A stretch of DNA of 45,928 bases. It comes from Candidatus Uhrbacteria bacterium (lineage in GTDB: Bacteria > Patescibacteriota > Patescibacteriia > UBA9934). The position numbers and the translations under genes are program-made. The stretch lies in assembly GCA_943359325.1 (NCBI GenBank), contig CALRHD010000006.1, forward strand, positions 1 to 45,928, written 5' to 3'. Below the pieces are notes generated by a model that searched no databases, was not told where the DNA came from, and was given only the letters and a program-made list of their open reading frames with translations. Below, piece by piece: positions 4,966-42,837 of this stretch. Each line of letters opens with the position of its first letter. The first letter of the stretch is position 1.

Positions 4966-5009
4966 TGTGGTTTAGCCACATGGCGGGTGGCTAAACCACA
5001 TGGTACGAT
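4966..5009 (+). promoter_or_regulatory. 14-bp perfect inverted repeat plus extended -10 upstream of flippase gene
   Basis: TGTGGTTTAGCCAC (4966-4979), 7 nt, GTGGCTAAACCACA (4987-5000), then TGG-TACGAT (5004-5009), 6 nt before ATG 5016. Confidence 0.6.
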
Positions 5010-31397: not shown

Positions 31398-31536
31398 ATC
31401 GTATTTGTACTCGGGATAGTCTGCTCTTCGCTGCGACCCGCCGGCCGCAGTCCGTACACAAGGCCTCGGCTTACGCCGGCCACGGACTGCGGGTCGGGTC
31501 TCACTCATCGCAAACTATCCCGAGTACAAATACGAT
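31398..31536 (-). repeat. Structured repeat, copy A, with 23-bp perfect terminal inverted repeats
   Basis: ATCGTATTTGTACTCGGGATAGT (31398-31420) and its exact reverse complement (31514-31536); core homologous to 40493-40621. Confidence 0.9.
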
Positions 31537-39990: not shown

Positions 39991-40029
39991 AAATCAACAC
40001 TCGGCACTGACAGTGCCGAGTGTTGATTT
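39991..40029 (-). terminator. Terminator of ATP synthase operon, overlapping atpC stop
   Basis: aaatcaacactcggcact-gac-agtgccgagtgttgattt, 18-bp perfect stem. Confidence 0.8.

Positions 40030-40492: not shown

Positions 40493-42837
<2,345 letters not shown>

Follow-up and report, generated by a model that had tools for sequence, protein, structure and literature searches.

Mobile hairpins with a conserved core and copy-specific outer arms, probably rewritten by fold-back template switching, in a genus of Candidatus Uhrbacteria

How can the outer arms of a repeated hairpin differ largely in sequence from one copy to the next and still pair with each other? This question is raised by a 45,928-nucleotide stretch of a Candidatus Uhrbacteria genome (GCA_943359325.1, contig CALRHD010000006.1, positions 1 to 45,928; hereafter the window), in which the first-pass annotation had described a structured repeat in two copies. 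The sequences, coordinates and strands given for both copies were correct on re-reading. Copy A (31398-31536, minus strand) lies between the stop codon of the PBP2 gene (mrdA) and greA. Its copy-specific 5′ outer arm ATCGTATTTGTACTCGGGATAGT (31514-31536, minus strand) is the perfect complement of its 3′ outer arm ACTATCCCGAGTACAAATACGAT (31398-31420, minus strand), and the described 23-bp perfect inverted repeats are thus present, with the core between them. According to the alignment of copies (A1) and the consensus structure taken from it, the core (31421-31513, minus strand) comprises a conserved inner stem, internal loops and an apical stem. The apical hairpin GGCCGGCGTAAGCCGAGGCC (31462-31481, minus strand), the pairs of which are largely invariant in A1, is flanked by GGCC...GGCC, as had been noted, and its loop in copy A and most other copies is GTAA, a GNRA tetraloop. 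The distinctive arm tip of copy A has no second occurrence in the 733 kb of its genome that were scanned.

Copy B (40493-40621, plus strand) occupies the atpC-atpD junction in antisense orientation relative to the operon. Its core is homologous to that of copy A (83% identical) and includes the apical hairpin GGCCGAGTAACGCCGAGGCC (40543-40562, plus strand). The outer arms of copy B do pair, over 13 bp in strict Watson-Crick terms and over 20 bp when G-U pairs are counted. The compensatory change from G-C to A-T reported for the inner stem is real; the copy B strands CAGTCCAT/ATGAACTG also hold one C-A mismatch, so that this stem is not fully compensated. The folding energy of copy A is -100.5 kcal/mol, compared with -54.9 for shuffled sequences (z = -13.5), and that of copy B is -71.3 (z = -4.9 against shuffles).

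The repeat is not limited to two copies. The window's own genome (G000; 790,734 bases or 0.79 Mb, 24 contigs) was searched at the DNA level and with a covariance model, the latter covering 733 kb, and was found to hold 11 full copies and 3 fragments, labelled A and B (both in the window) and then c1 onward. They form two subfamilies, one of B, c8 and c9 and the other of c1-c7, with copy A intermediate. The conserved core is 85-89 nt long in full copies except c7, where it measures 106 nt and contains a small extra hairpin with a CCCGTC duplication on its flanks. The uninterrupted stem has 18-28 pairs in ten full copies and 11 in c9. No gene lies inside the element, and its coding capacity is nil. 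DNA and model searches also found related hairpins in all four sister species of the same genus (G001-G004), compared at one genome per species with G001 and G003 covered in part. R2, a model trained solely on sister-species copies, has 22 matches in G001, 32 in G002, 41 in G003 and 42 in G004; two copies of G000 are picked up by it as well (E = 1.5e-6 and 8e-4), indicating that the subfamilies are related. Element length is ~130 nt in G000 and mostly 140-230 nt in the sister species. In some sister-species elements (L131 in G001; G002_C11:35601-35802), the apical region is swapped for a longer hairpin of ~95-135 nt reading GAGCCTCCGCCGA...GGCAAGCGAGCACC, which looks as if the cores were modular.

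Beyond the genus, the R1 search of 60 relatives and the R2 search of 18 other genomes of the family gave zero matches. An exact-pattern search across 85,488 species genomes returned 10 scattered matches; as neither R1 nor R2 backs any of them, they were rejected as distant copies and ascribed to chance. Viral contigs gave 13 matches to a 16-mer, none backed by the models, and zero to a longer core pattern, and no element was found in phage and plasmid searches. The annotation had recognised no named family, in line with Rfam 15, which has no match in the window at gathering score and nothing credible below it; at four copy-bearing loci, Rfam 15 gave one match at E = 0.9, outside the element. 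No earlier description of the hairpin family was found in the part of the literature covered. The elements are thus a genus-specific, small, non-coding and previously unnamed family.

Two functions had been suggested for such an element, a MITE-like mobile element or an operon-gap regulator. Element-free orthologous junctions exist for G000 copies A, B, c1, c3 and c11. At the atpD-atpC junction, G001 has no element and only four bases between the genes, G002 and G003 carry different elements of their own, both in sense orientation, and G000 carries the antisense copy B. The PBP2-greA junction of G003 holds no element, nor does the pheS-pheT junction, the site of copy c1, in G001 and G002. A 14-bp target duplication (GAAATTATTCATAA / GAAATTGTTCATAA, i.e. 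GAAATT[A/G]TTCATAA) that is single-copy in G001 and G002 borders copy c1, and G002_C10:72134 is flanked by a duplication of ~17 bp with three changes (AAACTACCCTAAGCAAC / AAATTACCTTAAGCGAC). Besides these two, which are the only clear cases against permuted flanks, duplications are possible at 6, 11 and 15 bp, and most copies have none; three direct repeats score above 11, compared with 0.17 expected from permuted flanks, one of the three being inside element sequence. Insertion sites are mostly intergenic gaps and gene ends, and some elements have inserted into others. The gaps occupied may be sense, antisense, convergent or divergent, and the sense orientation is not favoured. Copy number, empty orthologous sites, target duplications and the absence of coding capacity support the first suggestion: the elements are mobile, non-coding, MITE-like hairpins. 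The second finds no support in a family that occupies gaps of all orientations and lies antisense in the atp operon, and these orientations together with the empty junctions indicate mobile elements rather than fixed operon signals. It is likewise quite improbable that the element is a cis-acting transcript signal (a terminator, RNA stabiliser or operon attenuator) that spread with operon ends. Very stable hairpins do adjoin gene ends, but both orientations with respect to the genes occur, window copies A and B are not followed by a T-run, and sister species have junctions without the element.

The annotation had further taken conserved structure over diverging sequence as a sign of selection, and here the inner stem and the outer arms behave differently. 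Stem positions were numbered outward from the internal loop in the 11 copies, 0-9 being the inner stem and 10-19 the outer arms, so that outer-arm counts rest on ten positions per arm. Over the 11 copies, 96.5% of the structure cells are paired, compared with 82.7% in shuffles and 34-47% with the partner slid, so that the pairing is not due to chance. The cell counts that follow are descriptive, and not independent because the copies share ancestry. The inner positions have 87 Watson-Crick pairs, 23 G-U pairs and no A-C, a strand asymmetry that would follow from selection on the core strand in its folded, single-stranded form. At the outer positions, 96 of 110 pairs are Watson-Crick, with 5 G-U, 1 A-C and 8 others, a significantly lower G-U share than in the inner stem (Fisher p = 0.0009); when a 5′ arm is set against the 3′ arm of another copy, only 38% of positions 10-19 are Watson-Crick. 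Between copies of subfamily 2, inner-stem differences are single-sided in 58 cases and two-sided in 28, all of the latter being transitions. In the outer arms of the same subfamily, 80 differences are two-sided and 17 single-sided, with transitions making up 52 of the 80 and transversions involved in the other 28. The inner stem therefore behaves like a selected RNA or single-strand structure, and for this part the argument from conserved structure stands. It does not extend to the outer arms, which are short of G-U intermediates and, in copy B, mirror a coding sequence, features better explained by arm-to-arm copying.

Ordinary compensatory evolution, in which a selected RNA or single-stranded DNA requires pairing but no particular sequence in its long outer stem and single mutations are followed by compensating ones, would also give strong covariation along the whole stem, as is seen here, and the 52 transitions among the two-sided outer changes are of the type reachable through G-U pairs. 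It would hardly be expected to leave G-U pairs so rare in the outer arms and common in the inner stem. The outer arms differ even between copies with cores 98-99% identical; c5 and c3, for example, have cores 98.9% identical (one difference), and their arms agree at just 5 and 4 of the 10 positions, so that about half of the arm positions differ. With a fixed coding arm mirrored over 9 nt in copy B and no orientation bias relative to genes, stepwise compensation is a rather unlikely source of the outer arms.

Copy B shows how a new arm may have been made. The sequence CTACCC (40607-40612, plus strand), an element end common to copy c8, supplies the last codon (GGG) and the stop (TAG) of atpD. 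Beyond it, the 3′ arm tip TGTAACCTC (40613-40621, plus strand) consists of native atpD codons, its reverse complement being GAG GTT ACA, i.e. Glu-Val-Thr. The 5′ arm tip GAGGTTACA (40493-40501, plus strand) is perfectly complementary to this segment and is thus an exact 9-nt inverted copy of a constrained coding arm. G001, G002 and G003, which have no element or another one there, all retain the C-terminal SIDEVT of atpD; atpD of G000 ends in ...IDEVTG-stop and those of the relatives in Ala or Val plus stop. Nothing similar to GAGGTTACA was found at the corresponding position beside atpC in G001, G002 or G003. The comparison of copy B with G001 is the nearest case to the change of an imperfect into a perfect arm between close relatives. 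Fold-back copying would be expected to leave free sequence as the mirror image of a constrained coding sequence, as seen here. In each copy, DNA synthesis that used one outer arm as template for the other seems to account for their complementarity. At copy c1, the beginning of the right duplication is mirrored by 5 nt adjoining the element (ATTTC), together with a 6-nt filler.

Such copying might have taken place at insertion, with a single-stranded intermediate (for example in target-primed copying) snapping back and copying the target flank before joining. This would fit target duplications of variable length (~6, 14 and 17 bp), the mirrored ATTTC and filler at c1, a copy B 5′ arm that mirrors the native 3′ flank, and a G-U bias that marks one strand as the folded one. 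Against it, c7 looks as if the opposite side had been copied (AAAAACT; AGTTTT on the 3′ side), and c1 and c6 have 9 of 10 arm positions in common at different loci, indicating that arms often travel unchanged. The latter observation also weakens the idea that arms are replaced at every insertion. RVT_1 and Y1_Tnp genes are present as candidate partners; the two RVT_1 proteins of G000 (~350 aa; C11:7771-8379 and C1:95640-96251) resemble diversity-generating-retroelement enzymes, which also counts against copying at insertion. A reverse transcriptase was accordingly set aside as the driver. On balance, the formation of the arms at insertion is doubtful. A bolder version, that the element moves as a folded single strand and extends its hairpin by copying new flank at each insertion, possibly with RNA as the template, seems less likely still. 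Were this version true, the arms would be a partial record of earlier insertion sites, and an RNA-templated element would be SINE-like in a bacterium.

The arms could also belong to the target if elements inserted into the loops of pre-existing palindromes. The genomes are palindrome-rich, and some sister-species hairpins are nested in the apical part of others, as this explanation would have it. However, the empty sites of A, B, c1, c3 and c11 have no palindrome matching the arms, and the distinctive arms of A and c7 were not found outside the element in the scanned G000 sequence, making this origin very improbable.

We therefore favour, as the probable reading, a mobile hairpin family in which the inner stem is kept by selection and the outer arms are rewritten in blocks by fold-back template switching. 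Selection on the single-stranded fold (RNA or ssDNA) of one strand would maintain the inner stem and loops. A DNA end stalled within the hairpin would fold back on its own strand, use the opposite arm and a few flanking bases as template, and then return, leaving arms that are perfect and specific for each copy, with no ordinary compensatory drift. We infer that template switching is the copying mechanism and that it probably acts mainly after insertion. Template switching is known to create or repair perfect stems in one step, with GNRA loops enriched among the events (PMC8794818). It is expected to yield multi-base, two-sided arm changes without single-sided intermediates, and this is the pattern of the outer arms in both the differences (80 versus 17) and the G-U pairs (5 versus 96). 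In sister-species hairpins, the arms are imperfect and common to several copies, suggesting that rewriting is not equally strong everywhere; it is strongest in G000.

Palindromes are frequent in these genomes. Those with arms of at least 12 bases occur genome-wide at 90 per Mb, and at 51-109 per Mb across four species, compared with 3 in all in shuffled G000. SbcD is one half of a nuclease that, as established in E. coli, cleaves long hairpins. None of the five draft genomes of the genus yielded it, and the same search was positive in 13 of 14 control genomes; its loss may let long hairpins persist. Loss of ExoVII was rejected as a cause, since G000 has xseA.

Perfect arms with copy-specific changes and extensions are also seen in unrelated short palindromes of G000, several of them beside Y1 transposase genes. 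The clearest extension is at G000 C3:20582-20636, which has 27-base perfect arms and an outer ATAAAAACAAT that is missing from other family members. In the window, a perfect short palindrome, AAATCAACACTCGGCACTG-A-complement, lies at 39991-40029, at the downstream end of the atpC reading frame. It belongs to a set of nine in G000 with CACTG at an arm end; in this set, the middle bases and the arm tips vary from copy to copy and nevertheless remain paired. A second window palindrome, TGTGGTTTAGCCAC (4966-5000, 7-base loop), has two relatives flanking a Y1 (RAYT-like) gene (G000 C3:49840 and C3:50553). Similarly, palindromes of other short families at G000 C14:9801-9841 and C14:12693-12733 lie beside the Y1 gene C14:10070, and those at C19:5962-5992 and C19:6714-6752 beside the Y1 gene C19:6278. 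The small genome of G000 would seem to hold several REP/RAYT pairs. RAYT-like Y1 transposases are present in all five genomes of the genus, and the palindromes adjoining them are sequences other than the hairpin element.

Mobile hairpins have precedents, and the fungal mitochondrial double-hairpin elements are similar. The RHE of sponge mitochondria (PMC2800124) are likewise recognised by shape more than by sequence and invade intergenic regions of small genomes. Unlike these mitochondrial elements, the present family has a bacterial host, a conserved structured core of ~85 nt and inverted copying of flanking coding sequence. Among bacterial MITE-like families, NEMIS/Correia, ERIC, RUP, RPE and YPAL (PMC2229807) are also ~100-200 bp long, gene-less and mostly intergenic, form stable stem-loops in transcripts, and have many insertion sites and, in some families, target duplications. 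They have fixed terminal inverted repeats, often with TA ends, whereas the outermost arms here are copy-specific and perfectly paired, the duplications are long and differ in length, and none of the RVT_1 and Y1_Tnp genes examined could be identified as a parent transposase. The elements are short, non-coding and dispersed as MITEs are, but they have no terminal inverted repeats common to the copies, only the inner stem being conserved. REP/REPIN sequences with RAYT are also palindromic, extragenic, hairpin-forming and non-autonomous, with REPs of 20-40 bp and REPINs made of two REPs in opposite orientation (PMC3116915). The present element forms one long structured hairpin; the RAYT genes were seen with separate short palindromes next to them, but not with the element. 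With the template-switch mutations of PMC8794818 it shares one-step perfect stems, multi-base compensatory changes and GNRA loops; those events were read from rRNA gene histories, and here they would act on a dispersed mobile repeat and be visible across copies in one genome.

In summary, the finding is real; it is more ordinary than first stated, in that the repeat belongs to a MITE-like family, and also more interesting, in that its arms appear to be copied blockwise, an essential gene being one of the sources. The origin of long RNA or DNA stems and the maintenance of their perfect pairing are an old question, and a genome with many copies that have near-identical cores and arms replaced wholesale makes template switching testable against stepwise compensation. 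It also carries a warning that covariation among repeat copies need not imply selection for pairing. The family is a main class of intergenic repeat in these small genomes, often found at contig ends, and it touches essential operons (atp and mrdA-greA).
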